A stretch of DNA of 31,178 nt from a virus: the IMG/VR virus record IMGVR_UViG_3300030104_007044, positions 1-31,178 of that record. One strand, given 5' to 3'. The notes under the pieces were generated by a model that did not search any database, was not told the origin of the DNA, and saw only the letters and a list, made by a program, of their open reading frames with translations. The position numbers and the translations under genes are program-made. Shown here piece after piece: positions 1 to 31,089 of this stretch. The stretch's first letter is position 1. Each line of letters opens with the position of its first letter.

Positions 1-1
1 T

Positions 2-910
2 GGCACAACTTTTGTCACGAGTTGGTACACCCACGGTCTTGCTAGTTCCTATCTTGAAGGTGCTAATTTTCTCACGGCGGCTGTGTCAACGCCTGCTGAC
101 TCTATGGGTCATTCTCTTCTTTTACTTTGGGGTCCTGAAGCTCAGGGCAATTTCGTCCGCTGGTGCCAACTTGGAGGGCTTTGGTCCTTTGTTGCTCTCC
201 ACGGTGCCTTTGCTCTAATTGGTTTCATGCTCCGCCAGTTTGAACTGGCACGTCTCGTCGGTATCCGTCCCTACAATGCGATTGCTTTTTCTGGCCCTAT
301 TGCCGTTTTCGTTAGCGTGTTTCTCATCTACCCTTTGGGTCAATCAAGCTGGTTTTTCGCTCCATCTTTTGGAGTGGCAGCAATTTTCAGATTCCTGTTG
401 TTCCTCCAAGGATTCCACAACTGGACACTGAATCCCTTCCATATGATGGGTGTCGCGGGTATCCTGGGTGGAGCACTTTTGTCTGCCATTCACGGAGTCA
501 CCGTTGAAAACACACTCTATGAAGATGGAGAGTCCGCAACTACTTTTGCGGGTTTTGAACCTACGCAAGAGGAGGAAACTTACTCGATGGTTACTGCGAA
601 CCGTTTCTGGTCACAGATTTTCGGTGTTGCTTTTAGTAACAAGCGTTGGTTGCATTTCTTTATGCTCTTCGTACCCGTCATGGGTCTCTGGGTTTCTTCT
701 ATCGGTATTATTGGACTCGCTCTTAATCTTCGTGCTTACGACTTCGTTAGCCAGGAGATTCGTGCGGCGGAAGATCCAGAATTTGAGACGTTCTATACAA
801 AGAACATTCTTCTCAACGAAGGAATCAGAGCATGGTTAGCACCTGCTGACCAACCACACGAAAACTTTGTATTCCCTGAAGAAGTTCTTCCAAGGGGTAA
901 CGCACTGTGA
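2..910 (+). CDS. psbD: Photosystem II D2 protein, 5'-truncated by window edge
   Basis: Open in frame from base 2 to the TGA at 908-910; about 302 C-terminal residues of a roughly 352-residue protein. D2 is the thylakoid reaction-centre subunit that with D1 binds P680, pheophytin, QA and the non-haem iron. Numbered from the conserved C-terminus, every key residue is present: Tyr160 (YD), His189, His197 (chlorophyll ligand), His214 and His268 (iron) and Trp253 (QA). The transmembrane helices and the C-terminal [12 protein letters not shown] are intact. Phage copies are expressed during infection to replace photodamaged host D2. It ends in a 4-base GTGA overlap with a tiny membrane ORF. The identification is certain; only the start is missing. 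Confidence 0.98.
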
Positions 911-1017
911 TTCAGTTCGCACTAGGATTACTCATCGGGTATTTTGCTACCCGATTAGTAATCTCCCTCTACAAAACGTCTAGAGTTTTATATGAAAATT
1001 TCAGGCATATGGGGTAA
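907..1017 (+). CDS. Tiny putative membrane protein (36 aa)
   Basis: A GTG codon overlaps the psbD stop (GTGA) and opens a 36-codon frame ending in TAA at 1015-1017, three bases before the next ATG. The product begins [20 protein letters not shown], a single hydrophobic helix, followed by a basic/aromatic tail. The translational-coupling overlap and exact fit between two genes argue that it is real, but it is short, has no recognised family and contains a perfect inverted repeat that could be the actual function of the stretch. Confidence 0.5.
934..955 (+). other. Perfect 8-bp inverted repeat downstream of psbD
   Basis: ATCGGGTA, a 6-base loop (TTTTGC) and TACCCGAT. It lies inside the 36-aa ORF, 24 bases after the psbD stop. 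No U-tract follows, so it is not a standard intrinsic terminator. It could act as a 3'-end stabiliser or processing block for psbD mRNA. Confidence 0.55.
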
Positions 1018-1020
1018 AAT

Positions 1021-1233
1021 ATGTACATATTCTTTCTAGTAATATACCTAGTAAGTTTCTGTCTTATTGGTGGCGGTGCTTTTGCTCTGGTGTATGCTAA
1101 TCTTCAATCTATCAATAAAATGAATAGACCAAAGAGAAAGCAACACCCAGAAGCACCTCAACCAGGCGAAGAGGTAATGTATGTTGATCTCACAAGAGAA
1201 AAACTTGAAGACCTTTACAAACAAGATAGTTAG
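1021..1233 (+). CDS. Small single-pass membrane protein, unknown function
   Basis: 70 aa. The first 25 residues form a hydrophobic helix rich in Ile, Leu, Phe and Gly, followed by a basic patch (NRPKRKQ) and a soluble tail ending VDLTREKLEDLYKQDS. This is the layout of small cyanobacterial/cyanophage membrane proteins; the tail loosely recalls the C-terminus of DUF2973 proteins, but the match is from memory and weak. It starts three bases after the preceding small ORF, so it is probably cotranscribed with psbD. A terminator follows 10 bases after its stop, marking the end of the psbD unit. Function not recognised. Confidence 0.75.
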   Translation: MYIFFLVIYLVSFCLIGGGAFALVYANLQSINKMNRPKRKQHPEAPQPGEEVMYVDLTREKLEDLYKQDS

Positions 1234-1242
1234 TGATATACT
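1214..1242 (+). promoter_or_regulatory. Host-type sigma70-like promoter for talC
   Basis: TTTACA (1214-1219), 17-bp spacer, TATACT (1237-1242). Transcription would start near 1249, inside the terminator hairpin that follows, so the new transcript would lack the hairpin's 5' arm. Confidence 0.55.
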
Positions 1243-1243
1243 A

Positions 1244-1269
1244 AGGGGGTCTAATGACCCTCTTTTTTT
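1244..1269 (+). terminator. Intrinsic terminator running directly into the talC start codon
   Basis: AGGGGGTC (1244-1251), loop TAAT, GACCCTCT (1256-1263; one G-U pair), then an unbroken T run to 1269. The next base is the A of the talC ATG. It closes the psbD transcription unit. The only Shine-Dalgarno-like purines, AAGGGGG (1243-1249), are in the 5' arm. Confidence 0.85.
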
Positions 1270-1914
1270 ATGAAGATATTTCTAGATACTGCCGATCATT
1301 GGGAGATTGAAGATTACTTTAGTACCGGACTGATTGATGGAGTAACAACCAATCCTACCTTGATTAAAAAAGCAGGTAGAGACCCAGAAGAAGTTTATCA
1401 AAAAATCAAGGATATTGGACTCCAAGATATTAGTATGGAAGTCGTGGGTTCAGACCTTGAAATGTATGATGAGGGCATCCGCTTATATGAAAAGTTTGGT
1501 GATGTTGCTACAATCAAAGTTCCCTGCACACGCGAGGGTTTGATCGTCTGTAAGCGACTGTCCGAACAGGGTATCCGGGTGAATGTCACACTCATCTTCT
1601 GTGCCTCTCAGGCAGTCCTGGCCGCCAAGTCAGGGGCAACTTATGTCTCTCCCTTTGTTGGACGCTTGGATGACCAGTCAGTGGCGGGTCTGGAGGTTGT
1701 CAGAAGCATCTCTGAACTGTATCGTATCCATGGTATCAGGACACAGGTTCTCTCTGCCTCAATCCGATCAGTCCAAAGGGCAATTAGGTCATGGTATAAT
1801 GGTGCTGAGATTGTAACCATGCCCCCAAAAGTATTGGATCAGATGTATGATCACATCCTCACAGATAAGGGTTTGGAAATTTTTGATAACGATTGGAAAC
1901 AGGTAAAACAATGA
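1270..1914 (+). CDS. talC: Transaldolase, TalC / fructose-6-phosphate aldolase-like
   Basis: 214 aa, typical of the short TalC-type enzymes. The start MKIFLDTADHWEIEDY matches the family N-terminus exactly, so ATG 1270 is secure although no Shine-Dalgarno lies between it and the terminator T-run. GLIDGVTTNPTLI (about residues 20-32) is the family signature, and Lys83 in ATIKVPCT is the expected Schiff-base lysine. Cyanophage TalC interconverts sugar phosphates and is thought to push host carbon through the pentose phosphate pathway to give NADPH and ribose for phage nucleotides; that role is from the literature. Its TGA overlaps the glutaredoxin ATG (ATGA), so the two are translationally coupled. 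Confidence 0.96.
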   Translation: MKIFLDTADHWEIEDYFSTGLIDGVTTNPTLIKKAGRDPEEVYQKIKDIGLQDISMEVVGSDLEMYDEGIRLYEKFGDVATIKVPCTREGLIVCKRLSEQGIRVNVTLIFCASQAVLAAKSGATYVSPFVGRLDDQSVAGLEVVRSISELYRIHGIRTQVLSASIRSVQRAIRSWYNGAEIVTMPPKVLDQMYDHILTDKGLEIFDNDWKQVKQ

Positions 1915-2147
1915 CATTTACAGTATACTCAAAGGATGGGTGCCCCTATTGCACCCAAGTAGAACAGGTGTTAAAGTTGGCAGAACTTAAGCATATCATA
2001 TATAAACTTAACCGGGACTATACCCGTGAAGAGTTTTATGATAAGTTTGGCCAGGGATCAACCTTTCCAAGAGTTGTCAAAGACGATACACTTATTGGTG
2101 GTTGTACCGAAACTGTAAAATATTTGCGGGAGCAAAAGTTAGTATAA
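1911..2147 (+). CDS. nrdC: Glutaredoxin with CPYC active site
   Basis: 78 aa from ATG 1911, which overlaps the talC stop; the upstream TTG at 1893 is less likely because MTFTVYSKDGCPYC is the normal family start. The active site is Cys11-Pro-Tyr-Cys14. STFPRVV supplies the cis-proline loop and GGCTE the glutathione-binding turn. Glutaredoxins reduce ribonucleotide reductase and other disulfides, fitting phage DNA synthesis. A paralogue lacking the first cysteine lies at 4399-4635. The symbol follows the T4 nrdC convention and is tentative; the family is clear. Confidence 0.92.
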   Translation: MTFTVYSKDGCPYCTQVEQVLKLAELKHIIYKLNRDYTREEFYDKFGQGSTFPRVVKDDTLIGGCTETVKYLREQKLV

Positions 2148-2507
2148 ATGGAACAAAACCTCATCGACATCTACGATCTTATTGAACATGCGATTGACAA
2201 TGCTTTTGAGGGACAAATGAATCTAAAATTCTACGATTATCTTAAGGATACTAAGACTAAAAAACAGGAGGTAGATGTTTTCATTGCTAGCACTACTGCT
2301 AAAGAAATATCAGATCTTACAGTGGACCTTGATGAATATATCAAAGGCGGCTCAGACAATGAGCATAAACAAATCCGTGAGGGTTATGGGCACATTCCCA
2401 AACCTCAGGCAAGAAAAATAAAAATCTACCTACAAAATATATTGGAGGATGCACGGAGGTATAGTAGTGACCGAAGACCTGGACGACGTAAAAAGCAATC
2501 TAAATAA
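2148..2507 (+). CDS. Conserved cyanophage hypothetical, 119 aa
   Basis: Starts at the base after the glutaredoxin TAA. It is a soluble, mostly helical protein: an acidic N-terminal half (IDIYDLIEHAIDNAFEGQ) and a very basic tail ending SDRRPGRRKKQSK, which could contact nucleic acid. No catalytic motif is recognised. It resembles unnamed small proteins that recur beside cyanophage talC/nrdC genes. The last 41 bases are overlapped by the next gene in another frame, which is unusually long for this genome. Confidence 0.75.
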   Translation: MEQNLIDIYDLIEHAIDNAFEGQMNLKFYDYLKDTKTKKQEVDVFIASTTAKEISDLTVDLDEYIKGGSDNEHKQIREGYGHIPKPQARKIKIYLQNILEDARRYSSDRRPGRRKKQSK

Positions 2508-2673
2508 TCAGGAAACCCACATTAATCGTGGTGTTGAGTTATTATTGCGTAATAGGAGGAAGAAACCAGAACCACCAAAAACTTTTCAGGTAAAGTTTGG
2601 CAAGATGGTCTCTTTTTTCCGACGAGAGATTGTATTCCATCTGAACTTCTATCTGGATATCAGAAAGAAATAG
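2467..2673 (+). CDS. Small hypothetical, probable GTG start
   Basis: The best start is GTG 2467, seven bases after a strong GGAGG (2455-2459), giving 68 aa beginning MTEDLDDVKSNLNNQETHIN. An ATG at 2449 in the same frame has its GGAGG directly adjacent and is too close. The N-terminal half is polar and helical, followed by a basic stretch (RNRRKKPEPPK) and an aromatic/basic C-terminus. It overlaps the upstream gene by 41 bases. No family recognised. Confidence 0.6.
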   Translation: MTEDLDDVKSNLNNQETHINRGVELLLRNRRKKPEPPKTFQVKFGKMVSFFRREIVFHLNFYLDIRKK

Positions 2674-2691
2674 TCTCTGGAGGACAAACAG

Positions 2692-2913
2692 ATGTTAGCA
2701 GTATCCTTAACTCTTGGAACATTAGTTTCAATTATGTTCTTTTTCGTAGGAGGTGTGGTAGGATGGTTAGCGAAGGAGCACCAATACCAAACTCAACCAG
2801 TATATACTCATCCAGAGATGTTTGATGAAAACGGTAACGTATTACCAGATGAAATTTTAGCAGTACGATTTGAAAACAATTATGAGCCCGACGAAGACCA
2901 AGAAGACGACTAA
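2692..2913 (+). CDS. Small membrane protein resembling DUF2973
   Basis: 73 aa behind a good GGAGG (about 2679-2683). One N-terminal transmembrane helix (about residues 4-26, glycine-rich VGGVVGW) is followed by a soluble acidic tail. THPEMFDENGNVLPDEILAV resembles the HPE-DE-G-N-x-EPLL pattern I recall for cyanobacterial DUF2973 proteins, suggesting host origin. Function unknown. The last 32 bases overlap the next gene. Confidence 0.75.
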   Translation: MLAVSLTLGTLVSIMFFFVGGVVGWLAKEHQYQTQPVYTHPEMFDENGNVLPDEILAVRFENNYEPDEDQEDD

Positions 2914-3442
2914 TGTAGTCCTTCCACAGAACCCGTTTGTATTTGAGGTTTTGGAACTTGTTAGTAAGCAAAGATCAAAAGCAAAAAAGGTTGAGGTGCT
3001 AAAGGAGTATGAACATAACTCCGTGAAGGCAGTTTTAATTTGGAACTTTGATGATACTGTTATCTCCATGGTCCCTGAAGGGGAGGTCCCATATGGTGAT
3101 CTTGGAGATCAAACTGTCTATAGTGGAACCCTTTCTGGTAATTTGGAAAGAGAAATGGCAGGCGACATGGAATCCGCCACCGGACAAGACTTGGATGGTA
3201 GAGGCAAAACTTCACTCCGTAGGGAGTGGCAAAACCTCTATCACTATGTGAAAGGTGGTAATGATTCTCTAACTAAAACACGTAGAGAAATGATGTTTAT
3301 TAGTCTATTGAGAGGACTTCACCCAAGGGAGTCTGAAATTCTTTGTCTAGTCAAAGATAAAGTTTTGTCAACTAAATATAAGATAACTAAAGATGTTGTT
3401 GAAACCGCATACCCAGATATTCAATGGGGAGGTCGGGCATGA
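2882..3442 (+). CDS. Conserved cyanophage protein, DUF6433-like, 186 aa
   Basis: Start taken at ATG 2882 (MSPTKTKKTTNVVL); a TTG at 2870 would add four residues. Recognisable blocks: VFEVLELVSKQRSKAKKVEVL, VPYGDLGDQTVYSGTLSGN, LYHYVKGGNDSLTKTRREMM and AYPDIQWGGRA at the end. These match a protein found in nearly all cyanomyoviruses that I recall as DUF6433; the number is from memory. Soluble, helix-rich, no catalytic motif. It starts inside the upstream membrane-protein gene and ends in an ATGA overlap with the next. Confidence 0.8.
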   Translation: MSPTKTKKTTNVVLPQNPFVFEVLELVSKQRSKAKKVEVLKEYEHNSVKAVLIWNFDDTVISMVPEGEVPYGDLGDQTVYSGTLSGNLEREMAGDMESATGQDLDGRGKTSLRREWQNLYHYVKGGNDSLTKTRREMMFISLLRGLHPRESEILCLVKDKVLSTKYKITKDVVETAYPDIQWGGRA

Positions 3443-3783
3443 CAACAGTAGTAGACAAGGAGAAGGAAATGGCTGAATTTGGATCAGATGAAGGTGGTGT
3501 AAACCCCTCTGATTATAGTTGTCAAATTCTGCTTGAGAAGACTACTGTAGAGGTAGCAAACGATAAAAGTTTTCCCACTGATGCTAGGTTGGTCTGGTAT
3601 GTTGTGGAGGGCACCAATCACCTTGACCTGACCCGATGCGGTAAGGTTTCTAAATTATTTGATATGTACTATGATAAGTATGGACAAGGTGCGGTCCAAA
3701 AAATTGACTTTGGATATGGAACGGTGAGTCCAAAACTCTGGGGCAACAAACCAAAGAAAGAAAAAGAAAAGAAAAGAAAATGA
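3439..3783 (+). CDS. Conserved cyanophage hypothetical, lysine-rich tail
   Basis: ATG 3439 overlaps the preceding TGA and has GGGGAGG six bases upstream, giving 114 aa. An internal ATG at 3469 also has a good AAGGAG and would give 104 aa; both are credible. The core RLVWYVVEGTNHLDLTRCGK and FDMYYDKYGQGAVQKIDFGYG is compact, and the C-terminus is an extreme lysine run after WGNKPKK. The basic tail suggests nucleic-acid binding, but no family is recognised. Confidence 0.75.
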   Translation: MTTVVDKEKEMAEFGSDEGGVNPSDYSCQILLEKTTVEVANDKSFPTDARLVWYVVEGTNHLDLTRCGKVSKLFDMYYDKYGQGAVQKIDFGYGTVSPKLWGNKPKKEKEKKRK

Positions 3784-4058
3784 ATGAGGAAGATCTTAGG
3801 GCACAAATTAACTCTCTGATCCGAGATGAAATCCAAGAGAACATTAATGACTACGTTGATTCTGTAGAAGAGACAAAGAAGGCAGGTCTTGGATTTGTCT
3901 CTACTGATGATAATCAACAATTAAAAGTCAAAGTCTCTCAGAAAGAGATTGATAAAATCATTAAGGATTATAAAAAGATGAAAAAGAGTGAGAGATCCAA
4001 TCTTTCACACATTAAAAAACTTGGGTTGGTTGACAAACACGGAAACCCATTAAAATAA
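3780..4058 (+). CDS. Small conserved hypothetical, 92 aa
   Basis: ATGA overlap with the upstream gene. An acidic N-terminal helix (MNEEDLRAQINSLIRDEI) leads to a lysine-rich C-terminal half (IIKDYKKMKKSERS) ending LGLVDKHGNPLK. Helical and soluble, with no recognisable motif. It closes a run of five overlapping genes from 2467, apart from one 18-base gap. Its stop codon is embedded in a late-promoter-like AATAAATA for the next gene. Confidence 0.75.
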   Translation: MNEEDLRAQINSLIRDEIQENINDYVDSVEETKKAGLGFVSTDDNQQLKVKVSQKEIDKIIKDYKKMKKSERSNLSHIKKLGLVDKHGNPLK

Positions 4059-4061
4059 ATA
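4054..4061 (+). promoter_or_regulatory. T4-like late promoter element
   Basis: AATAAATA, close to the T4 late consensus TATAAATA, 20 bases before ATG 4082. It contains the TAA stop of the upstream gene. Confidence 0.45.
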
Positions 4062-4081
4062 CACCAGCAGGAGTGTAGCAT

Positions 4082-4399
4082 ATGCTTTCTACCCAATATA
4101 GGTTGCGTTTAGAGGCAATTTGTGAAAAGATTGTCTCTGGCACGGAGGTATCTTTGGATGATATGATTTGGGCAAATAAGTTAGCAAAGTCCAATCAAAG
4201 TGCGGCATCAATACTAAGAAAGGCTAGAAGAATAGCAAACAACCCGGATATTCAAGAGGGTGGTCTTGATGATTTTATGATACAGATGGGACTGGGGGAT
4301 CCTGACCCATCTAATCACACCAAAGGATTCCAAAACACCGATGAAATAGCAGAATGGTTTCATGAGGATAGAACTGATGATTGGAGGCAACGCGACTGA
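4082..4399 (+). CDS. Conserved cyanophage hypothetical, 105 aa
   Basis: A strong AGGAG (4069-4073) lies eight bases before the ATG. Signature blocks are VSLDDMIWANKLAKSNQSA, RKARRIANNPDIQEGGLDDF and MGLGDPDPSNH, which I recognise as a well-conserved unnamed cyanomyovirus protein. It is helical with a basic centre and acidic C-terminus. A late-type promoter element upstream suggests it is expressed separately from the early cluster. Its TGA overlaps the next ATG by one base. Confidence 0.8.
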   Translation: MLSTQYRLRLEAICEKIVSGTEVSLDDMIWANKLAKSNQSAASILRKARRIANNPDIQEGGLDDFMIQMGLGDPDPSNHTKGFQNTDEIAEWFHEDRTDDWRQRD

Positions 4400-4635
4400 T
4401 GCAGGCATTAATTTACTCTAATGGTAATCAAGAATGTGAGAGGGCAAGGAGTCTTCTTACAAGTGTTCATGAGGACATTAAAGAGTTCCTTTTGGATGAG
4501 GACTTTACCGATAAACAATTCCGTTTAGAGTTTGGTGAAAATGCGGAATATCCACAGATCTCTGTTGGATTGAACCATAGGGGATCACTAAAAGAAACCC
4601 TTCATTACCTGAAGAATAATGGGGTTATCCAGTAG
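4399..4635 (+). CDS. Glutaredoxin-fold protein lacking the N-terminal active-site Cys
   Basis: 78 aa from ATG 4399 (TGATG junction with the upstream gene; GGAGG 11 bases upstream). It aligns along its whole length with the CPYC glutaredoxin at 1911-2147: MQALIYSNGNQEC against MTFTVYSKDGCPYC, then RLEFGENAEYPQISV against DKFGQGSTFPRVV, and LKETLHYLKNNGV at the end. The motif position reads N-Q-E-C, so only the second cysteine is kept, while the cis-proline is retained. It cannot do dithiol chemistry; a monothiol-like, binding or structural role is possible. Confidence 0.8.
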   Translation: MQALIYSNGNQECERARSLLTSVHEDIKEFLLDEDFTDKQFRLEFGENAEYPQISVGLNHRGSLKETLHYLKNNGVIQ

Positions 4636-4638
4636 ACA

Positions 4639-4654
4639 GTGTTGAAACCGACAC
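4639..4654 (+). other. Small hairpin after the second glutaredoxin gene
   Basis: GTGTTG, loop AAAC, CGACAC: a 6-bp stem with one G-U pair starting four bases after the stop codon. No U-tract follows, so termination is doubtful. Confidence 0.35.
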
Positions 4655-4656
4655 AC

Positions 4657-4685
4657 TTGACTAAATAATGTATGAGGTCTAATAT
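4657..4685 (+). promoter_or_regulatory. Host-type sigma70-like promoter before the riboswitch
   Basis: TTGACT (4657-4662), 17-bp spacer, TAATAT (4680-4685). The predicted start near 4692 coincides with the 5' edge of the riboswitch. The -10 box sits in the palindrome AGGTCTA-ATA-TAGACCT (4675-4691). A late-type CTAAATAA (4661-4668) overlaps the -35 region. Confidence 0.65.
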
Positions 4686-4691
4686 AGACCT

Positions 4692-4741
4692 GTCGTTCAT
4701 CTAGGAAACTAGACGCAAGTAAGTCGCGGAACGGAGCGTTC
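4692..4741 (+). promoter_or_regulatory. Downstream-peptide / glutamine-II type riboswitch
   Basis: Matches the remembered consensus of the Downstream-peptide RNA motif, known from cyanobacteria and marine phages and reported to bind glutamine. Outer stem CGTTC (4694-4698) pairs with GAACG (4729-4733). Hairpin TCTAG-GAAA-CTAGA (4700-4713) has a GNRA loop. The conserved internal string GACGCAAGTAAGTC (4712-4725) follows. The ribosome site GGAG (4733-4736) starts at the last base of the outer stem, and a 55-aa peptide gene starts at 4747, exactly the expected context. A second CGTTC (4737-4741) offers GAACG an alternative partner. Confidence 0.78.
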
Positions 4742-4746
4742 ATCCC

Positions 4747-4914
4747 ATGGCAGAATTACTTCTGTATACTACCCTCTCATGCGAACAGTCTTCAGCGATA
4801 ATGTTGAGGATTAAAGCAAGTGAGTACCTTGATAATGAAGTCAAGGTAGAATTAGTTGAGACCATAAAGGAATCAGCACCAGAATGTGAGTGGTATTGGG
4901 ACGCAAACGACTAA
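4747..4914 (+). CDS. Riboswitch-controlled small acidic peptide (downstream peptide, 55 aa)
   Basis: ATG 4747 lies 10 bases after GGAG in the riboswitch; the frame encodes 55 aa to TAA 4912-4914. It begins MAELLLYTTLSCEQSSAIML and ends PECEWYWDAND. Cys12 and Cys47 and a Trp-Tyr-Trp acidic tail are notable; the N-terminus LLLYTTLSC looks like the first strand of a thioredoxin-type fold, but the protein is too short to hold one. Similar peptides follow this RNA in cyanophages and are presumed to act in nitrogen/glutamine signalling, without a shown function. It was missed by a length-based ORF cut-off. Confidence 0.82.
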   Translation: MAELLLYTTLSCEQSSAIMLRIKASEYLDNEVKVELVETIKESAPECEWYWDAND

Positions 4915-4923
4915 AGGAACGGG

Positions 4924-4946
4924 CCTAAAAATCCAACTACTTTAGG
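4924..4946 (+). promoter_or_regulatory. Hairpin covering the ribosome site of the DUF4278-like gene
   Basis: CCTAAA (4924-4929) and TTTAGG (4941-4946) form a 6-bp stem with an 11-base loop. The 3' arm includes the first three bases of the Shine-Dalgarno AGGAG (4944-4948), so the structure could limit initiation at 4955. Confidence 0.4.
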
Positions 4947-4954
4947 AGTCAATC

Positions 4955-5122
4955 ATGAACACACTTAACATGATTAAAAAGCAGATTCAAAAAGCTGCTG
5001 CTGTGCATAACGCGCAAATCAACCATACCGTATATCGTGGTGTGGAATATGACACACGTTGTGTAGAAAGCAAGGAGTCTCACGGCACCTTCTGCTATCG
5101 TGGACGCACTTATTCTAAGTGA
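4955..5122 (+). CDS. Small basic protein, DUF4278-like
   Basis: 55 aa from ATG 4955, six bases after AGGAG; stop TGA 5120-5122. The paired motifs TVYRGVEYDT and FCYRGRTYSK are the Y-R-G-x-x-Y signature I associate with DUF4278, a family of short cyanobacterial proteins also seen in cyanophages. The N-terminal 25 residues form a basic amphipathic helix (MIKKQIQKAAAVHNAQ). Function unknown. It lies in the transcription unit that starts at the riboswitch and ends at the terminator at 5149-5177. Confidence 0.78.
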   Translation: MNTLNMIKKQIQKAAAVHNAQINHTVYRGVEYDTRCVESKESHGTFCYRGRTYSK

Positions 5123-5151
5123 TTGTCAAACACGATGATTAGTGTTAGAAT
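5123..5151 (+). promoter_or_regulatory. Host-type sigma70-like promoter for the gene at 5178
   Basis: TTGTCA (5123-5128), directly after the upstream stop codon, a 17-bp spacer, and TAGAAT (5146-5151). The predicted start near 5158 lies at the top of the terminator hairpin that overlaps the -10 box, the same layout as at talC. Confidence 0.6.
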
Positions 5152-5177
5152 GGGAGGGTATACCCTCCCATTTTTTT
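5149..5177 (+). terminator. Strong intrinsic terminator running into the next start codon
   Basis: AATGGGAGGG (5149-5158), loop TATA, CCCTCCCATT (5163-5172): a perfect 10-bp stem followed by T to 5177. The ATG of the next gene is at 5178. It ends the riboswitch transcription unit. Confidence 0.92.
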
Positions 5178-5354
5178 ATGGAAAGAGAGAAACTAAAGTT
5201 GATAGTTAGAAACTTAAAACTTCTTGTGGATGCTCTTGAATCAGAAGTTTATTCTGATGTGGAAGCATACCAGACCAGACAGGAAAATTTTGATGATCCT
5301 TCTGCTAATTACATAACCGACTATGATGAGGTCTTTGAAGATGACGACGGATAA
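5178..5354 (+). CDS. Small acidic conserved hypothetical, 58 aa
   Basis: ATG 5178 (MEREKLKLIVRNLKLLVDAL) directly follows the terminator T-run; upstream in-frame starts lie inside or before the hairpin and are unlikely. An N-terminal leucine-rich helix that may form a coiled coil is followed by an acidic C-terminus (ITDYDEVFEDDDG). It has no Shine-Dalgarno other than the GGGAGGG in the terminator stem. It overlaps the next gene by 14 bases. Resembles unnamed short cyanophage proteins; function unknown. Confidence 0.75.
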   Translation: MEREKLKLIVRNLKLLVDALESEVYSDVEAYQTRQENFDDPSANYITDYDEVFEDDDG

Positions 5355-5532
5355 GATAGATACGCAGGGTATGAGTCTTCCTGGTAAATCAAAGAGACCA
5401 AGTAGTTATGCCCCCATGCCAGTAAAAACCAGGACAATTTTTACTGATGAAGAAAGAAAAGAACTAAAGCAAATTATTAACGAGGCACTTGATGAAAGAG
5501 AACAGCGTAAAACTAATCAGTGTAACTCCTGA
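5341..5532 (+). CDS. Small hypothetical overlapping thyX, 63 aa
   Basis: ATG 5341 has GAGG seven bases upstream (5330-5333); ATG 5371 (MSLPGKSKRPSSYAPMPVKT) is an alternative. The proline/serine-rich, probably disordered N-terminal half is followed by a charged helix (FTDEERKELKQIINEALDER). It overlaps the upstream gene by 14 bases and thyX by 41 bases, so the three are tightly coupled. No family recognised. Confidence 0.65.
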   Translation: MTTDKIDTQGMSLPGKSKRPSSYAPMPVKTRTIFTDEERKELKQIINEALDEREQRKTNQCNS

Positions 5533-6136
5533 TGCTGAAAAACACATGGCATATTGTGCCCGTGTGTCCAATCCATCTAATCAGGAGAATGAAAAGTTCT
5601 CTGGTCTACTAAGATACTGCGTAAAACATCAGCACTGGAGTATCTTTGAGCAGGCATTCATGACCCTGGAGATTAACACCACCAGAGGAATCGCAGCTCA
5701 GATCCTAAGGCACCGTAGTTTCACATATCAAGAATTTTCACAACGCTATGCTGATTCCTCCCTACTCAGTGAGAAGATCCCCTTACCAGAACTCCGTAGA
5801 CAAGACACCAAAAATCGTCAAAACTCCATTGATGATGTTGATCCATTCGTCAATCAAGAGTTTCAGATTAAAATGGAAAACCATTTTCAAGAGGGGATGA
5901 AACTGTACAAAGAGATGCTTGACTTTGGAATCGCAAAGGAATGTGCTCGTTTTGTGCTTCCCCTCGCCGTAGGGACAAAAATTTACATGACCGGTTCAGT
6001 TCGTTCATGGATCCATTACATAGATCTGAGGTCTGCTAATGGCACACAGAAGGAGCATATGGATATTGCTTTGGGTGCGAAGGAGATCTTCTGTCAACAG
6101 TTCCCTGCCGTTGCGGAAGCAATGGAGTGGGTTTAA
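5492..6136 (+). CDS. thyX: FAD-dependent thymidylate synthase
   Basis: 214 aa from ATG 5492 (MKENSVKLISVTPDAEKHMA) with GAGG upstream. The diagnostic ThyX motif RHRx7S is at residues 73-83 (RHRSFTYQEFS), followed by QRYADSS. HWSIFEQAFMTLEI and the C-terminal GSVRSWIHYIDLR are also typical. ThyX methylates dUMP to dTMP with methylenetetrahydrofolate and a flavin, supplying dTTP for phage replication and replacing the T4-type td enzyme. Length and motifs are complete. The stop codon is built into a late-promoter-like TAATAAATA. Confidence 0.97.
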   Translation: MKENSVKLISVTPDAEKHMAYCARVSNPSNQENEKFSGLLRYCVKHQHWSIFEQAFMTLEINTTRGIAAQILRHRSFTYQEFSQRYADSSLLSEKIPLPELRRQDTKNRQNSIDDVDPFVNQEFQIKMENHFQEGMKLYKEMLDFGIAKECARFVLPLAVGTKIYMTGSVRSWIHYIDLRSANGTQKEHMDIALGAKEIFCQQFPAVAEAMEWV

Positions 6137-6142
6137 TAAATA
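6135..6142 (+). promoter_or_regulatory. T4-like late promoter element
   Basis: AATAAATA overlapping the thyX stop codon, 21 bases before ATG 6164. Confidence 0.45.
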
Positions 6143-6163
6143 CAAGAAAAGGATTGAACGTTT

Positions 6164-6412
6164 ATGCCAACGTACCCTGTTATTAATTTGAAGACTAAGG
6201 AAAAAAAAGAACTTAGTATGTCCATGAGGGCATATGATGAGTGGAAAAAAGAAAACCCAGACTGGGATAAAGATTGGTCACAAGGATGTGCCGGTCAATC
6301 CACAGAATTTAAATGGACTGGTGAAGCTAAATCAAATGGATGGAATGAAGTCTTAGATCGTGCGTCCAGACAACCTGGTGCCAATGTAAGTAAAAACCGA
6401 TACTACGGTTAA
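6164..6412 (+). CDS. Conserved T4-like marine phage hypothetical, 82 aa
   Basis: MPTYPVINLKTKEKKEL, then MRAYDEWKKENPDWDKDWSQ and a C-terminus rich in Gly, Lys and Asn (ASRQPGANVSKNRYYG). The start and size resemble small FmdB-like proteins common in marine T4-like phages, but the zinc-binding CxxC pairs are absent here (one Cys only), so any relation is a degenerate fold. It follows a late-type promoter element and precedes phoH. Function unknown. Confidence 0.8.
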   Translation: MPTYPVINLKTKEKKELSMSMRAYDEWKKENPDWDKDWSQGCAGQSTEFKWTGEAKSNGWNEVLDRASRQPGANVSKNRYYG

Positions 6413-6439
6413 TTCCTCTCTCCTAGTTTCTTACACCTT

Positions 6440-7195
6440 ATGTCAGCAAAAAGAAAGTCTCAATCCCCTATCGTTCCATTTGGAATGAGTAACAAACACA
6501 TGAAAAGAAAGAAACCAATTAACTCAGACTTGATGAAAACCATCGAGCCACTGACAGAAAATCAAGAAGAACTTTTTCGTTGTTATAAAAATGATCAGAA
6601 CTTGGTTGCCTATGGATGTGCTGGTACGGGAAAGACCTTCATAACACTCTACAACGCCCTCAAGGATGTCTTTGATATGAAGACACCCTATGAGAATATC
6701 TACATCGTTAGATCCCTTGTAGCAACCAGAGAGATTGGTTTCCTTCCCGGAGACCATGAAGATAAGTCTTCCCTGTATCAAATACCATATAAGAACATGG
6801 TGAAGTTCATGTTTGAACTTCCAACTGAGGCAGATTTTGAGATGCTATATGGTAATCTTAAAACTCAGGGAACTATAAAATTTTGGTCCACAAGTTTTAT
6901 TCGCGGGACAACCCTTGATAATGCTATCATCATCGTTGACGAATTCCAAAACTTGAATTATCATGAACTGGATAGTATTATTACAAGGGTAGGAGAGAAC
7001 AGTAAGATTATGTTCTGTGGGGATGCTACCCAAACAGATCTTATCAAGGATAGAGAGAAAAACGGTATCGCAGATTTTATGAAGATCTTGCGGGTCATGC
7101 CATCAGTTGATATCATTGAATTTGGAGTGGAAGATATTGTTCGCTCCGGTCTTGTTAAAGAATACCTACTCGCAAAAATGGAAATGAATCTCTAA
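6440..7195 (+). CDS. phoH: PhoH-like P-loop ATPase
   Basis: 251 aa. Walker A is at residues 59-66 (GCAGTGKT), Walker B at 163-168 (IIIVDE), then FCGDATQTD, all typical PhoH. A basic N-terminal extension (KRKSQSP, KHMKRKK) precedes the domain. PhoH is a RecA/helicase-like ATPase often carried by marine phages and linked to phosphate stress; its reaction is not settled. No clear Shine-Dalgarno precedes ATG 6440; the leader is pyrimidine-rich. The stop overlaps the next start (TAATG), pairing it with the nuclease gene. Confidence 0.95.
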   Translation: MSAKRKSQSPIVPFGMSNKHMKRKKPINSDLMKTIEPLTENQEELFRCYKNDQNLVAYGCAGTGKTFITLYNALKDVFDMKTPYENIYIVRSLVATREIGFLPGDHEDKSSLYQIPYKNMVKFMFELPTEADFEMLYGNLKTQGTIKFWSTSFIRGTTLDNAIIIVDEFQNLNYHELDSIITRVGENSKIMFCGDATQTDLIKDREKNGIADFMKILRVMPSVDIIEFGVEDIVRSGLVKEYLLAKMEMNL

Positions 7196-7878
7196 TGAAT
7201 TTTATTCATCATAATTATCTCGGTGATCTTGAACTAAACAAAAAAGAAACCAATGGCATCCGTCTCTACAACCTTCCTGGTGGAGATTGGGTGCCTTCTA
7301 TTACGTCTGTAACTTCGTTCTATAACAGGGAAATCTTTGTTAAGTGGAGAAAGAGGATTGGTATCGAAGAAGCTAATCGCATTACAAAGAGAGCAACTGC
7401 CCGTGGAACAGACTTCCATGCGGCAACTGAACTCTACATGCTGAATAAAGAAATAAACTGGGATGATTTTAGACCCCTGACCAAGTTTATGTTCATTCAT
7501 GCCAAACCATATCTGGACAAGATAAATAATATACACGCTATAGAAAGGACCCTGTATTCAGAGTACCTTGGATTAGCAGGTAGGGTTGACTGTATAGCAG
7601 AATATGAGGGAGAACTTGCAGTCATCGACTTTAAAACATCAGAAAAGATTAAACCTGAAGAGTGGTTGGAGAATTATTTCGTCCAAGAGATGTTCTATGC
7701 TTCTGCTTACTACGAACTAACTGGCATCCCAGTCAAAAAACTAATCACCATTATGGTAACCCCTGGTGGTGAGGTAAAAATATTTGACAAACGAAACAAA
7801 GGGGTGTATATTAAACTATTAGTTCGGTATATTAAAGAATTTGTATCTCACAATCTTAGGTCAGCGGATGGAGAATGA
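7195..7878 (+). CDS. PD-(D/E)XK family exonuclease
   Basis: 227 aa, translationally coupled to phoH. The nuclease core is visible: RGTDFHAATELY (His75), GRVD with Asp132, then VIDFKTS with Asp145 and Lys147 as the D-x-K pair, and a conserved Gln164 in FVQEMFYASAYY. This pattern is that of the RecB/Cas4-like and MGME1-like single-strand exonucleases annotated in many cyanophages. It probably works in DNA processing, recombination or host-DNA breakdown. It is not a T4 46/47-type enzyme. A host-type promoter for the genes that follow lies within its 3' end. Confidence 0.88.
   Translation: MNFIHHNYLGDLELNKKETNGIRLYNLPGGDWVPSITSVTSFYNREIFVKWRKRIGIEEANRITKRATARGTDFHAATELYMLNKEINWDDFRPLTKFMFIHAKPYLDKINNIHAIERTLYSEYLGLAGRVDCIAEYEGELAVIDFKTSEKIKPEEWLENYFVQEMFYASAYYELTGIPVKKLITIMVTPGGEVKIFDKRNKGVYIKLLVRYIKEFVSHNLRSADGE
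7784..7812 (+). promoter_or_regulatory. Host-type sigma70-like promoter inside the exonuclease gene
   Basis: TTGACA (7784-7789), 17-bp spacer, TATATT (7807-7812). The predicted start near 7819 is about 50 bases before the gp33-type gene, so it could drive 33-59-DUF1825 independently of phoH. Confidence 0.65.
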
Positions 7879-8125
7879 ACTAGAAAAAGTATTAGAGAGT
7901 AAGTTCTTTTGTCCGTCTCGTTTCGCTCAAGAGATTGAATCTCTTGTTCAACTTAATGCGGACATGAACTACATAGACGCAATAATTCATTTTTGCGATC
8001 AGCAAAGTATTGATGTAGAATCTGTTCCTAAACTTATTTCTAAACCGCTTAAAGACAAATTGAAAGCAGAAGCAATGGAACTTAATTTCTTGAAGAGAAG
8101 TTCCAGGGCAAAACTACCCTTGTAA
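7868..8125 (+). CDS. gp33: Late-transcription coactivator, gp33-type
   Basis: 85 aa from ATG 7868, overlapping the exonuclease end by 11 bases. MNYIDAIIHFCDQQSIDVESVPKL and LKDKLKAEAMELNFL are hallmarks of the family I recall as phage late-transcription coactivators (T4 gp33). In T4, gp33 bridges RNA polymerase with the gp45 clamp and works with gp55 at TATAAATA-type promoters, which fits the late elements in this window. T4 gp33 itself is not obviously alike at sequence level, so the call rests on the marine-phage family. Confidence 0.78.
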   Translation: MENELEKVLESKFFCPSRFAQEIESLVQLNADMNYIDAIIHFCDQQSIDVESVPKLISKPLKDKLKAEAMELNFLKRSSRAKLPL

Positions 8126-8141
8126 TTATTTTATTTTCGTG

Positions 8142-8732
8142 ATGCCATTTGACTGTTATAAGCAATACCTTTCCTTGAAAAATCATTTCACCAAGGAGAA
8201 GTATGATTACCACAAGTATTGTGGTAAAAGTCGTGCGACAGTACAATCTTTCTACAAAAGAAAAGATCGTTTCTGGTTTGAAAAACTAGCAAGAAATAAA
8301 AATGACCAAGAGGTTGTAGAATTTTTCATATCTAATCTCATCACCTGTACTGATCCAAGTAAGCTTTGGATTGGAGAAATGATACGCGAGGGTGAGGGTA
8401 GATATACCTCATGGAAGAAAAGAACACAGTCACTTTCTTATTTCTTCAGAGATGAGATGGAAAAAATACTTGCGGAATATGACCTAGATTCTGCATTTAC
8501 AAGTTCCAATGGACATCCGCCAGTGTTAAAAAAATATCTAAGTGGTGATATCTCAATTGAGACCCTAGTGATATGTGATAAAATTCTTGGATACCGAACT
8601 GACTATGATAAAAATCTAACAGACCCTGTATGGGAAACCGTCAGTATGAGAATGAAGAAGTATTCTCCGTTCCTAAATATCGATGTATTCCGTTATAAAA
8701 AAATTCTTAAGGAGGTTGCTTTACAGCAATGA
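8142..8732 (+). CDS. gp59: DNA helicase loader, gp59-like
   Basis: 196 aa from ATG 8142; a GTG directly before it is possible. YKQYLSLKNHFTKEKYDYHKY, FYKRKDRFWFEKLARN and VVEFFISNLI follow the T4 gp59 pattern (YKLYLMIKQHMNGKYDVIKYN, RRDKYFFQKL, IFISNLV). gp59 loads the gp41 helicase on gp32-coated forked DNA. All-helical and basic, as expected, and slightly shorter than T4 (217 aa). It is in its usual neighbourhood beside gp32 and gp33. The stop overlaps the next ATG (ATGA). Confidence 0.88.
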   Translation: MPFDCYKQYLSLKNHFTKEKYDYHKYCGKSRATVQSFYKRKDRFWFEKLARNKNDQEVVEFFISNLITCTDPSKLWIGEMIREGEGRYTSWKKRTQSLSYFFRDEMEKILAEYDLDSAFTSSNGHPPVLKKYLSGDISIETLVICDKILGYRTDYDKNLTDPVWETVSMRMKKYSPFLNIDVFRYKKILKEVALQQ

Positions 8733-9073
8733 GTTTCTTTGATTCAGAGGTTGTCCGTGCTGAGATGACCGAAATTAGTGAATTACAAGAAGATGTTTAT
8801 CGTAACGTCTTTAAATTTCCAACGATGAGTAAAGATGAAAAACTCTTTCATGTTGGACTTCTGGAAAAATTGATAGAGAAACAAAAAATTCTCTATGCTC
8901 GTCTGAGTTTATCTGATGATCCAGATGCAAAAACTATGAAACAAAATATCATTGACTCCGCGCAGATGATGGGTCTCTCATCGGATGTGGATATGAACGT
9001 GGTCTTTTCTAATATGGAAAGGATGCTTCACATCATGAGGAGTCAGGTTGACAGCGGAGAAGCCAACCTGTAG
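8729..9073 (+). CDS. DUF1825 family protein
   Basis: 114 aa, coupled to gp59 by ATGA and preceded by a full AAGGAGGT (8709-8716). MSFFDSEVVRAEM, ELQEDVYRN, FHVGLLEKLIEKQKILYARLSLSDDPDA and the helical C-terminus match cyanobacterial DUF1825 proteins (MGFFDSDIVQQE...), so it is a host-type gene fixed in cyanomyoviruses next to gp32. It occupies the place of T4 uvsY-like small recombination genes, but no functional evidence is visible. Its stop codon forms part of the gp32 promoter -10. Confidence 0.85.
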   Translation: MSFFDSEVVRAEMTEISELQEDVYRNVFKFPTMSKDEKLFHVGLLEKLIEKQKILYARLSLSDDPDAKTMKQNIIDSAQMMGLSSDVDMNVVFSNMERMLHIMRSQVDSGEANL

Positions 9074-9076
9074 AAT
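9048..9076 (+). promoter_or_regulatory. Near-consensus sigma70-like promoter for gp32
   Basis: TTGACA (9048-9053), 17-bp spacer, TAGAAT (9071-9076). The TAG stop of the upstream gene is the first half of the -10 box. The predicted start near 9083 leaves a leader of about 39 bases. Confidence 0.75.
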
Positions 9077-9121
9077 GAACGGGTACACACAAGCCAAATA
9101 CGTACAAACAAAACGAATCCT

Positions 9122-10054
9122 ATGTCTTTCGCAAATCTAAAGAAGCAATCCTCTCTTGGATCCCTGACCTCTAAACTGGTCAAGGAAGTTGAGAAGATGA
9201 ACAACAACGGCGGCGGTGGAGATGACCGTCTCTGGAAACCCGAAATGGATAAGACCGGCAATGGTTATGCCGTGATCCGTTTCCTGCCTGCCCCTAACGA
9301 AGAAGAACTTCCTTGGGCAAAGATGTATACCCATGCCTTCCAAGGCCCTGGTGGTTGGTATATTGAGAACTCACTGACTACTATCGGTCAAAAGGATCCC
9401 CTTGGTGAGTATAATCGTGAACTCTGGAACAGTGGTAGTGATACCGATAAGGACACTGTTCGTAAGCAGAAGCGCAAACTGTCCTACTATGCCAACATCT
9501 ATGTGGTACAGGACAAAGCAAACCCTGGCAATGAAGGTAAAGTCTTCCTTTATAAGTTTGGTAAGAAGATCTTTGATAAGATCATGGAAGCAATGCAACC
9601 TGAGTTTGAGGATGAGACTCCTATCAATCCCTTTGATTTCTGGCAGGGTGCTAACTTCAAACTGAAAATTAAGAAAAAGGATGGATACTGGAATTATGAC
9701 GCATCAGAATTTGATCGCACTGCACCACTCCTGGATGACGATGATGCTCTTGAGGCCCTCTGGAAGAAAGAGTATTCGTTGACTGCCTTGACTGCTGCCG
9801 ATCAGTTCAAGTCCTATGAGCAACTTGAGAATCGTCTCAAGATGGTTCTGGGTAAAAAGTCTCCTGCTCGTCCTCGTTTTGATGAGGAACTGGAGGATGA
9901 GAGTGATGGTCGTGGATCATTCACTCCTGAGTTTAAGTCAAAGGCACCTGAACCTGCTGCTGACTTTAACGCACCAGACATCACCCCCACCAAGTCTGCT
10001 GACTCTGATGAGGATGATGCTCTATCCTACTTCCAGAAACTTGCTGAAGAATAA
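9122..10054 (+). CDS. gp32: Single-stranded DNA-binding protein gp32
   Basis: 310 aa. The N-terminal basic segment (MSFANLKKQSSLGSLTSKLV) serves cooperativity, as in T4. The OB core contains GYAVIRFLPAPNEEELPWAKM, KRKLSYYANIYVV, NEGKVFLYKFGKKIFDKI and WQGANFKLKIKKK, close to T4 gp32. The C-terminal 70 residues are acidic and disordered, ending EDDALSYFQKLAEE, the tail that recruits partners. There is no cysteine anywhere, so the T4 zinc site (His, three Cys) is lost, although the His in YTHAF remains. No Shine-Dalgarno; the leader is A-rich. Its stop abuts the convergent gp53 stop with no gap. Confidence 0.96.
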   Translation: MSFANLKKQSSLGSLTSKLVKEVEKMNNNGGGGDDRLWKPEMDKTGNGYAVIRFLPAPNEEELPWAKMYTHAFQGPGGWYIENSLTTIGQKDPLGEYNRELWNSGSDTDKDTVRKQKRKLSYYANIYVVQDKANPGNEGKVFLYKFGKKIFDKIMEAMQPEFEDETPINPFDFWQGANFKLKIKKKDGYWNYDASEFDRTAPLLDDDDALEALWKKEYSLTALTAADQFKSYEQLENRLKMVLGKKSPARPRFDEELEDESDGRGSFTPEFKSKAPEPAADFNAPDITPTKSADSDEDDALSYFQKLAEE

Positions 10055-10723
10055 TTAATTATAGATTCTGATATTATCAGCATTCTTAAGGGTTTCACTC
10101 ACATACTGGGTGGAACCCTTTCTGTATGTCATCATTTCTTCCATATCATCACGGACAACATTAAGATAAAGTGGTTTGAGTAAGAATATATTTCTCTTCC
10201 CATCTTCAATCTCAAGTTCATACTCATAGTTGGTGACTGGAATTGATATGTTAGCTAGATCAACATTAATTCCAGTTCGGGTGTCACTATATTTAAATGG
10301 GAAAGTTTCATCTGTTTTAAGACCAGCCTTTACAAATACAATACCCTCACTATCCTTGACCTCAGTCGTTTCATAATGATGAATCCCACCAAAAAGGTTA
10401 TCATAGGTGCTATATTTTTCTAACATAAACCTATCAAAGTCTGCCTGTTGTAAGGGCCATTCTGTTTGAATGTTTATAACATTATTACAGGTGAGAACTA
10501 ACCAATCTAATTTTGAATCCCCATAGAATTCAAATGCGACGTTATCAGGGCGGTCATCACCTCTGATTTTATATTTTGTAAAGAAAGAAACGTTCTGAAA
10601 GATATCCTCCCTAAGTTTTCCTTTCTTAAATAAATTTTTGACCTTGATATAATCAGAGATCTTCGCATCAGGAAGTCTACTGACATAGTTAAAGTCTGGA
10701 AGTTGTCTAAAGTAATTTGACAT
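10055..10723 (-). CDS. gp53: Baseplate wedge subunit gp53
   Basis: 222 aa on the minus strand. The central block RGDDRPDNVAFEFYGDSKLDWLVLTCNNV with the following W corresponds to the T4 gp53 signature (GSPRPEELANAIYGNPQLYWVLLMCND). gp53 locks wedges together around the baseplate hub. Slightly longer than T4 (196 aa). It is the last gene of a four-gene minus-strand block, one base after gp48, with a possible ribosome site AATAGG inside the gp48 end. Its TAA directly abuts the gp32 TAA. Confidence 0.85.
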   Translation of the reverse strand: MSNYFRQLPDFNYVSRLPDAKISDYIKVKNLFKKGKLREDIFQNVSFFTKYKIRGDDRPDNVAFEFYGDSKLDWLVLTCNNVINIQTEWPLQQADFDRFMLEKYSTYDNLFGGIHHYETTEVKDSEGIVFVKAGLKTDETFPFKYSDTRTGINVDLANISIPVTNYEYELEIEDGKRNIFLLKPLYLNVVRDDMEEMMTYRKGSTQYVSETLKNADNIRIYN

Positions 10724-10724
10724 T

Positions 10725-12212
10725 TTAGAAACCTATTGAAAGATCGCTTTCATCTCTATAATCATCATCATATACTGGTGTGAGTTCTTGGAATTGGAGT
10801 GTTAATCCATATGATGTCATGGCACCATCTGGGAATGTGGCGTAATTGTTATTTGGAGTATAATCTACATTAATTCCTGTGCAGGCAACCTCTTTTATTT
10901 TATTGATGAAGGGATTATCCGTGCCGTTACGGTGTAGATATTGTATTTTATATGTATGAGGAGATTTTAAAAATAAATTTGACCCTGATCTTTTTACAGA
11001 AGAACCTTGTTTAAAAAATCTAAGTATTCTCACAATCTCCTTACTTTCTTCTCTTTGCCTTGCCGATAATTGGAATTGAAAAGTAAACTGTCTTAGTGCT
11101 GGATTATTAAACAATAGTTCCATGTTTGGATTAAGGATTGCTCCTGTTGTCCTTGTCACTAATTGTTGTCCCATCCCTGTTGCCGCACCAGCTACCACAG
11201 TTGCTATCGCAGATTTCGCGTCCTTATTATCTTTGCCGCTAAGTCTCTGAACAATTTGACCGATCGCTGCTGATGCCCCCTTTGGACCATCTGCTATAGC
11301 ATTCAATGCGACGTTTGCTAATGCGAGTTGTGCGGCATTTGCCGTTCCAGCTGACCATGAAACCCTATCATCACTTTTTATCCCACCTGGTATCGGTAGC
11401 ATTACGGTTCCTAATATTTCCCTATTACCACCCCGCTCATTTGATTGAACAAAAAAGGCATCTGACGAATCTCCGCCTATACGAATGTCTGATGGAACAT
11501 ACTTCATCATAGTAAATTTAATTACATCCTGAGATGTACTCGCAAGATCTAGAGGATACATGATACTTGTGTTTGGACCGGAATATAACCTAGTTCTAGT
11601 CCCTGCTGCCTCACCAAGTTTTAATTTATCCTGAATTTTCGTTATTGTTGAGGTATCACTTGGATCAATATCTACTTCGCTATCTTTCTGAGTATCCGAT
11701 TCTTCTGCGTCAGTGCTTCCATCTTCTGTTGTTTTCTCTTCATCGAGGTTTACTGCCGTATTGTTTTCTGATTTATACCCATTAGTCTCTCTTATCTTAT
11801 TCAGATCATCTTGAATCTCTGAATCCAATGCTCCCAATAATTTTAAATTATCAATAGTTCTCTTTTTTATTATTCTATTATGACTACTTAATTGCGCTGG
11901 TCCCTTTTCCCCACCAAAAATTGCCCTGAATCTGGATTTATCTTGGATTAAAATATTTTCTCCGTCTGGATTAGATGGATTAAATCTATAAACTAAACTC
12001 CTATTTGTATTTAAACCCAGCGCCTTGTTCTGTTCATAAACATCATAGGCACCCGTTTCTGGATTAACTACCGTCACTATATCTACGGGAGCATTATATC
12101 CATCAGCAGGTCTAGTTCGACCATATTTTTTCAGAGTAAGTGTAGAGACAAGTTTCCCCTCGTCCTCCGAATTAGCCGGTCCATATTCCCATCCTTTATA
12201 TGGTTGTGACAT
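10725..12212 (-). CDS. gp48: Baseplate tail-tube cap gp48
   Basis: 495 aa on the minus strand, against about 364 in T4. The C-terminal half is diagnostic: NPNMELLFNNPALRQFTFQF, EIVRILRFFKQGSS, VACTGINVDYTPNNNYATF and MTSYGLTLQFQELTPVYDDDY. gp48 caps the hub and starts the tail tube with gp54. The extra length is in the N-terminal part: a PNPETG-like strand region and a low-complexity acidic Ser/Asp/Glu/Thr stretch at about residues 150-195, followed by an Ala/Gly-rich hydrophobic section (about 290-355). A minus-strand late element lies just upstream. Confidence 0.87.
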   Translation of the reverse strand: MSQPYKGWEYGPANSEDEGKLVSTLTLKKYGRTRPADGYNAPVDIVTVVNPETGAYDVYEQNKALGLNTNRSLVYRFNPSNPDGENILIQDKSRFRAIFGGEKGPAQLSSHNRIIKKRTIDNLKLLGALDSEIQDDLNKIRETNGYKSENNTAVNLDEEKTTEDGSTDAEESDTQKDSEVDIDPSDTSTITKIQDKLKLGEAAGTRTRLYSGPNTSIMYPLDLASTSQDVIKFTMMKYVPSDIRIGGDSSDAFFVQSNERGGNREILGTVMLPIPGGIKSDDRVSWSAGTANAAQLALANVALNAIADGPKGASAAIGQIVQRLSGKDNKDAKSAIATVVAGAATGMGQQLVTRTTGAILNPNMELLFNNPALRQFTFQFQLSARQREESKEIVRILRFFKQGSSVKRSGSNLFLKSPHTYKIQYLHRNGTDNPFINKIKEVACTGINVDYTPNNNYATFPDGAMTSYGLTLQFQELTPVYDDDYRDESDLSIGF

Positions 12213-12226
12213 TACTTAGCAGTTTT

Positions 12227-13017: not shown

Positions 13018-13039
13018 ACATAATATATAAGGTAAAAAC

Positions 13040-13047
13040 TATTTATA
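13040..13047 (-). promoter_or_regulatory. T4 late promoter, exact TATAAATA, for the minus-strand block
   Basis: The minus strand reads TATAAATA within the palindrome CTATTTATAG (13039-13048), 22 bases upstream of the gp4 ATG. It also touches the start of the divergent plus-strand gene. Confidence 0.7.
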
Positions 13048-13048
13048 G

Positions 13049-13861: not shown

Positions 13862-13869
13862 TAACCCCT

Positions 13870-13876
13870 CTAAATA
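13870..13876 (+). promoter_or_regulatory. T4-like late promoter element for gp26
   Basis: CTAAATA, eight bases after the upstream stop and 26 bases before ATG 13903; AGGA (13895-13898) serves as ribosome site. Confidence 0.5.
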
Positions 13877-13902
13877 AAATTACTGAAACTCTATAGGACA
13901 TT

Positions 13903-14622: not shown

Positions 14623-14624
14623 CC

Positions 14625-31064: not shown

Positions 31065-31089
31065 CAAGAACACCTGACCGTCGTATAAT
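31061..31089 (+). promoter_or_regulatory. Perfect consensus sigma70 promoter
   Basis: TTGACA (31061-31066), 17-bp spacer, TATAAT (31084-31089). The predicted start near 31096 leaves a leader of about 16 bases with AGAGG (31102-31106) before ATG 31112. It marks the switch from late tail genes to an early gene. Confidence 0.9.

Follow-up and report, generated by a model that had tools for sequence, protein, structure and literature searches.

Two systems in T4-type phages combine a promoter and a hairpin in ways that come closest to the locus described here. The promoter-early stem-loop (PeSL) cassettes of T4-type phages were reportedly described by Arbiol in 2010 and Comeau in 2014. One passage of PMC4503421 cites PeSLs as composite promoter-terminator cassettes that are linked to gene shuffling. 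In the leaders of T4 genes e, soc, 49, and I-TevI, longer transcripts fold into an inhibitory hairpin, whereas the gene's own promoter is placed so that its RNA is missing the 5' arm (PMC3014915). Here, we analyze a 31,178-nucleotide (nt) stretch of DNA, hereafter the window (positions 1 to 31,178 of IMG/VR record IMGVR_UViG_3300030104_007044). Database comparison identifies it as a fragment of a T4-like cyanophage whose relatives at the talC place are Kyanoviridae. Positions 1214 to 1272, between a 70-amino-acid (aa) open reading frame (ORF) and talC, hold a promoter, a terminator, and a start codon within 60 nt. We propose, with a probability of about 0.72, that this represents one example of a compact composite joint that is widespread in T4-like cyanophages and works as set out below, a reading built on sequence comparison.

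All parts of the joint lie on the plus strand, and our scan places the promoter, the stem, and the T-run exactly where a first-pass annotation of this DNA had located them. The -35 element TTTACA (1214 to 1219) lies inside the L-Y-K codons of the 70-aa ORF, and a 17-nt spacer separates it from the -10 element TATACT (1237 to 1242), which ends 0 nt before the stem. This promoter scores 10/12 matches and carries in addition the TG of an extended -10 (1234 to 1235). The TG is part of the TGA at 1234 to 1236, the second stop of the ORF's tandem TAG TGA (1231 to 1236), which follows in frame on the TAG at 1231 to 1233. The hairpin, AAGGGGGTC-TAAT-GACCCTCTT (1243 to 1264), has 9 bp and a 4-nt loop and begins 9 nt from the stop codon of the ORF. 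It ranks first among 13 terminator-like sites in positions 1 to 16000; folded alone, it reaches -13.9 kcal/mol (z = -4.2), a stability that none of 200 shuffles equaled. A run of seven T's (1263 to 1269) abuts the talC ATG at 1270 to 1272.

Sigma-70 transcription usually starts 7 nt after the -10. This geometry puts the predicted start at 1249, within the 5' arm, where RNA would retain only the stem remnant GGUC/GACC, with CUC between the remnant and the T-run. The predicted leader of about 21 nt contains no visible Shine-Dalgarno sequence, as the annotation had noted, but this absence is not special, as a crude count finds none in 24/34 genes of the window. An ATG in the hairpin loop (1254) was rejected as an upstream start because it is neither in the talC reading frame nor conserved. 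A reading as the late promoter NATAAATA was likewise rejected, as the -10 of the window does not fit it and TGATATACT is an extended sigma-70 -10; the S-RSM2 and Bellamy counterpart, TGATATATAAAGGG, is nearer to the late-promoter motif and may have drifted. Rfam models gave no gathering-level match to the window, only weak chance matches.

Taken alone, the window promoter proves nothing, since promoter-like sites occur at chance level in this A+T-rich DNA (50 versus 45 in shuffles). We thus sought evidence in comparison, using contingency tests and orthologous joints. The pool of all loci, RB49 excluded, contains 118 terminators that abut a start codon, of which 77 have a -10 at the stem. These 77 distinct elements, drawn from IMG/VR and named cyanophages, stand before 37 unrelated downstream families. 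Across the 118 terminators, a -10-like hexamer ends 0, 1, or 2 nt before the stem 55, 11, and 6 times, respectively, and any other offset occurs at most 6 times. The gap is 0 nt in 53/77 elements and 0 to 2 nt in 70/77. A -35 with at least 5/6 matches stands at a spacing of N16 to N18 in 49/77 elements versus 0 to 3/77 at other spacings; N17 alone accounts for 41, while each spacing from N10 to N15 or N19 to N24 accounts for at most 2. The extended TG is present in 60/77. Importantly, elements were selected without regard to the -35, and TG served solely as a tie-breaker between -10 candidates. When only one element per distinct first eight residues is counted, the -35 remains in 41/69 and the TG in 52/69.

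A sample chosen without reference to any promoter gave the same picture. We scanned IMG/VR for the bare string ACCCTCTTTTTTTATG, and among the matches listed, a -10 with at least 5/6 matches abuts the stem in 29/38 cases in which the ATG begins an ORF at least 40 aa long, in only 13/71 other cases (Fisher P = 5e-9), and in 2 to 4/38 when the windows are shifted upstream as a control. The named-genome scan, which covered ACG-2014a, Bellamy, S-TIM5, S-T4, Syn9, S-PM2, P-HM2, and the window, found a -10 at the stem in 10/28 ATG-abutting terminators versus 30/471 others (P = 1.6e-5). RNA that begins 7 nt after the -10 would retain a mean of 2.4 of 7.7 stem pairs, with at most 4 pairs in 72/77 elements and a leader of about 20 nt. 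These comparisons support a start inside the 5' arm, as the annotation had proposed for talC, as the predicted rule across the 77 elements. They also give strong evidence of selection on the composite and of its modularity.

The stop codon of the upstream gene is often part of the arrangement, lying within 13 nt of the stem in 43/73 elements and exactly 3 nt before the -10, as in the window, in 28/74. In Syn9, the 32-nt element takes up precisely the space from psbD to gp219, with its -10 at 168317 to 168322, a predicted start at about 168329, and the gp219 ATG at 168349. In S-PM2, an element likewise fills precisely the space from psbD to the following gene, at 138914, with a predicted start at about 138894. 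In both phages, the TG of the extended -10 belongs to the TGA that ends psbD, which links all four signals, from stop codon through promoter and terminator to start codon, in one chain. S-TIM5 carries an element ahead of thyX. By these scans, complete cyanophage genomes carry about 0 to 2 ATG-abutting copies, and the 31-kb window carries two. A separate site in S-PM2 (AJ630128, about 136605 to 136650) adjoins the F-CphI homing endonuclease gene; there, a TGA that is apparently the psbA stop forms TGATATAAT, a terminator hairpin follows immediately, and an abutting ATG is absent.

We examined orthologous joints in 80 IMG/VR loci with the 70-aa ORF and in named phages, which together yield 72 distinct junctions. 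Many read TTTACA-N17-TGATATA(A/C)T, followed immediately by a GC hairpin, T6-7, and ATG, after which the genes differ. Behind the 70-aa ORF, TTTACA stands at N17 in 25/28 elements while the stop codon varies between 3, 6, and 9 nt before the -10. The promoter spacing thus appears to be held independently of the reading frame, which supports selection on the promoter. The hairpin arms vary between loci with pairing kept (GAGGGT/ACCCTC, GGGCG/CGCCC, GGAGG/CCTCC, and AGAGACC/GGTCTCT), though stems were chosen for being paired and only the variety of pairs counts as evidence. The talC junction of S-RSM2 and Bellamy reads TTTACA...TGATATATAAAGGGCG...CGCCC-TTTTTT-A-ATG, the equivalent junction of ACG-2014a precedes purC instead of talC, and the S-SM2 talC joint is a degenerate version of the composite. 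Loci L093 (G006, positions 80 to 160) and L033 show one contig with two joints, one between a psbA-like stop and purC and the other between the 70-aa ORF and another gene; the hairpin of the first L093 joint, before purC, is GGGTCTAATGACCCTC, nearly identical to that of the window.

Several talC joints keep a hairpin just 5' of the ATG and have lost the T-run, namely, L001 (S-SM2, 1679 to 1704), L034, L050, and L052. L044, L069, L073, and L074, whose sequences differ, likewise keep a hairpin near the ATG without a full T-run. Their form suggests that the hairpin either has another role or is decaying.

The genes on either side of the elements belong to 22 upstream and 37 downstream families. 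Thirteen downstream families occur behind the 70-aa ORF, another 13 behind a psbA/psbD-like cluster, and 8 behind more than one upstream family. With so many partner families on both sides, we regard the joint as a place of gene exchange. A joint in which promoter, terminator, and start codon form one unit can have different genes attached at its ATG, and comparison shows this arrangement in related phages. Pfam names downstream include glutaredoxin, PurS, SAICAR synthetase (purC), 2OG-Fe(II) oxygenases, pyrimidine-dimer glycosylase, ThyX, thioredoxin, DNA methylase, heme oxygenase, and cell-wall hydrolase, alongside many more families without a named function. The superposition that the annotation had called unusual is thus real as a joint but is not peculiar to talC, as it recurs before 37 gene families and in a second window copy.

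We propose that transcripts arriving from upstream would form the whole hairpin and halt in the T-run. A host-type sigma-70 polymerase would initiate at about 1249 in the 5' arm, and its RNA would keep about 2 to 4 stem pairs, could form no terminator, and would continue into talC with a leader of about 20 nt that lacks a Shine-Dalgarno sequence. In read-through RNA, the hairpin would stand about 5 nt before the AUG and translation would probably be poor, such that talC would be expressed mainly from its own start. The hairpin may thereby act as a second, translational barrier in such RNA, and the S-SM2-type elements without a T-run fit this role. The annotation had further proposed that the joint stops read-through from psbD and insulates talC from it. 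The gene concerned is instead the 70-aa ORF at 1021 to 1233, as psbD ends at 910. Insulation holds up for the talC transcript but not for the promoter, because incoming polymerases would cross the promoter before terminating. Overall, that interpretation appears largely right but too local, with comparison supporting its promoter, hairpin, and geometry. A bolder version remains tentative, and we consider it rather unlikely: in this version, the joint is a start-codon-precise socket of cyanomyoviruses, in which chained stop, promoter, terminator, and start make a plugged-in gene independent of its neighbor at both transcription and translation, perhaps with restart of a just-terminated polymerase that slides back. 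Post-termination recycling of polymerase has been described (PMC6978380).

Several observations weigh against the composite joint as we read it. In E. coli, a test terminator is nearly silenced by ribosomes when the stop codon lies only several nt away, and it reaches full strength only beyond about 27 nt (PMC4824070). With the stop 9 nt from the stem, translating ribosomes may make termination at 1243 to 1264 leaky; if coupling is similar in Synechococcus, termination would be partial and dependent on translation of the upstream ORF. Preservation of the hairpin and T-run with varied base pairs is consistent with the halt proposed by the first-pass annotation, but a full stop is thus overstated. 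The TTTACA of the window also encodes the conserved L-Y-K, and RNA that begins only 5 nt after the -10 would retain about 4 to 5 stem pairs. The S-SM2 lineage retains the hairpin but has lost the T-run, indicating that termination is not kept everywhere. P-HM2 has talC as a middle gene, yet it shows no ATG-abutting element of this kind in our scan. Finally, related sequences are not independent, and the P values given above are therefore too small by an unknown amount.

Some of these observations fit other explanations. One possibility, to which we give roughly one chance in four, is that the hairpin is foremost a translational gate that, as in the T4 leaders above, hinders initiation in long transcripts and leaves transcripts begun inside the hairpin free, with the T-run secondary. 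The talC joints that keep a hairpin near the ATG without a full T-run (S-SM2, L034, L050, and L052, plus, with differing sequences, L044, L069, L073, and L074) are expected of such a gate, and T4 offers a precedent in which an inhibitory hairpin has a promoter in its 5' arm (PMC3014915). The hairpin mostly ends 4 to 7 nt before the AUG, however, and pairs with neither the start codon nor a Shine-Dalgarno sequence. T5 to T8 is also kept in most of the 77 elements, which fits termination better, though the search itself required a T-rich tail.

It is improbable that the joint serves mainly recombination, as a short shared border sequence that lets phages swap accessory genes while its regulation is incidental. 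The 13 different families behind one upstream gene and the 8 downstream families behind more than one upstream family are in keeping with such a role, but promoter and hairpin features stay exact even where paired substitutions have altered the stem, a constancy that would not be required of a tract serving homology alone. We find it harder still to credit an ordinary stop-proximal terminator that happens to meet an accidental promoter; talC expression would then depend on read-through or on some unrecognised promoter. The A+T-rich window has many promoter-like matches, its TTTACA is coding, and ribosomes can suppress terminators near stop codons (PMC4824070); against this stands the position-specific enrichment of the -10, of the -35 at N17, and of the TG over 37 unrelated gene families. 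We favor the composite joint.

The virus is a marine virus of cyanobacteria. The gene order around the joint is psbD (ending at 910), a short ORF, the 70-aa ORF, talC, and a glutaredoxin-like gene. The 70-aa ORF (1021 to 1233, plus strand), the true 5' neighbor of the joint, belongs to family T4-GC 988 and has no assigned function; its S-SM2 ortholog is annotated T4-LIKE GC 988, and it falls in PHROG 32637/275, of the unknown-function class. The transaldolase-like talC (1270 to 1914, plus strand) matches PHROG 440 transaldolase (E = 3e-91), and the TalC of SynMITS9220M01 is 89% identical. The second element of the window (5123 to 5180, plus strand) directly follows a TGA stop at 5120 to 5122. 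Its promoter, TTGTCA-N17-TAGAAT with the extended TG (5123 to 5151), is followed by the hairpin GGGAGGG-TATA-CCCTCCC plus A and T7 (5152 to 5177; -14.9 kcal/mol), which abuts the ATG at 5178 of a 58-aa ORF (5178 to 5354, plus strand; PHROG 878, unknown-function class). Bellamy carries an ortholog of this element ahead of the same small ORF. Elsewhere in the window, a perfect consensus promoter, TTGACA-N17-TATAAT (31061 to 31089), lies ahead of an ORF starting at 31113; it has no hairpin and is an ordinary promoter.

Cyanophage genomes gain and lose many host-like metabolic genes, and the joint looks like a reusable socket for such accessory genes. A shared joint that ends the neighboring gene, starts the newcomer, and gives it a start context would explain how unrelated genes could be expressed immediately at the landing places concerned, which lie next to psbA, to psbD, or to the small ORF that follows psbD. 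The joint is also a searchable signature of accessory-gene slots, and the prediction is testable in phages with published transcriptomes (Syn9 and S-PM2).

Compared with known systems, the joint resembles ordinary intrinsic terminators of cyanophages and cyanobacteria in its GC hairpin and T-run, and cyanobacteria apparently have no Rho and depend on intrinsic terminators (PMC7843447). It differs in its promoter, as 441/471 terminator-like sites that do not abut a start codon have none at the stem. The predicted start within the 5' arm recalls the T4 gene e leaders by its geometry. Those leaders act at the translational level, however, whereas the cyanophage hairpin has a T-run and a sigma-70-like promoter, with TGATATACT in place of the late promoter NATAAATA. 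The window stem ends at 1264 and the AUG begins at 1270, so that the hairpin pairs with neither a Shine-Dalgarno sequence nor the start codon. A single RB49 site (AY343333, 20492 to 20535), located between genes 45 and 44, comes close to the cyanophage order, with a sigma-70 promoter that ends 6 nt short of a strong hairpin. We rejected it as an equivalent, as the start of gene 44 is about 40 nt away from the hairpin and is preceded by a Shine-Dalgarno sequence of its own. Like PeSLs, the cyanophage joint combines a sigma-70-like promoter and a stem-loop terminator in one short intergenic cassette, and it sits between variable genes at junctions of modular exchange. The RB49 PeSLs are tandem, with the terminator before the promoter: by our measurements, the -35 begins 13 to 32 nt after the stem and the -10 ends 65 to 83 nt after the stem start in 14/19 pairs. 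The cyanophage promoter instead lies upstream and overlaps, with its -10 0 to 2 nt before the stem, its predicted start inside the stem, and its T-run abutting the ATG. The cyanophage joint would thus work like a PeSL in superposed form, ending at the start codon, and is probably best regarded as a variant of these cassettes rather than a plain member.
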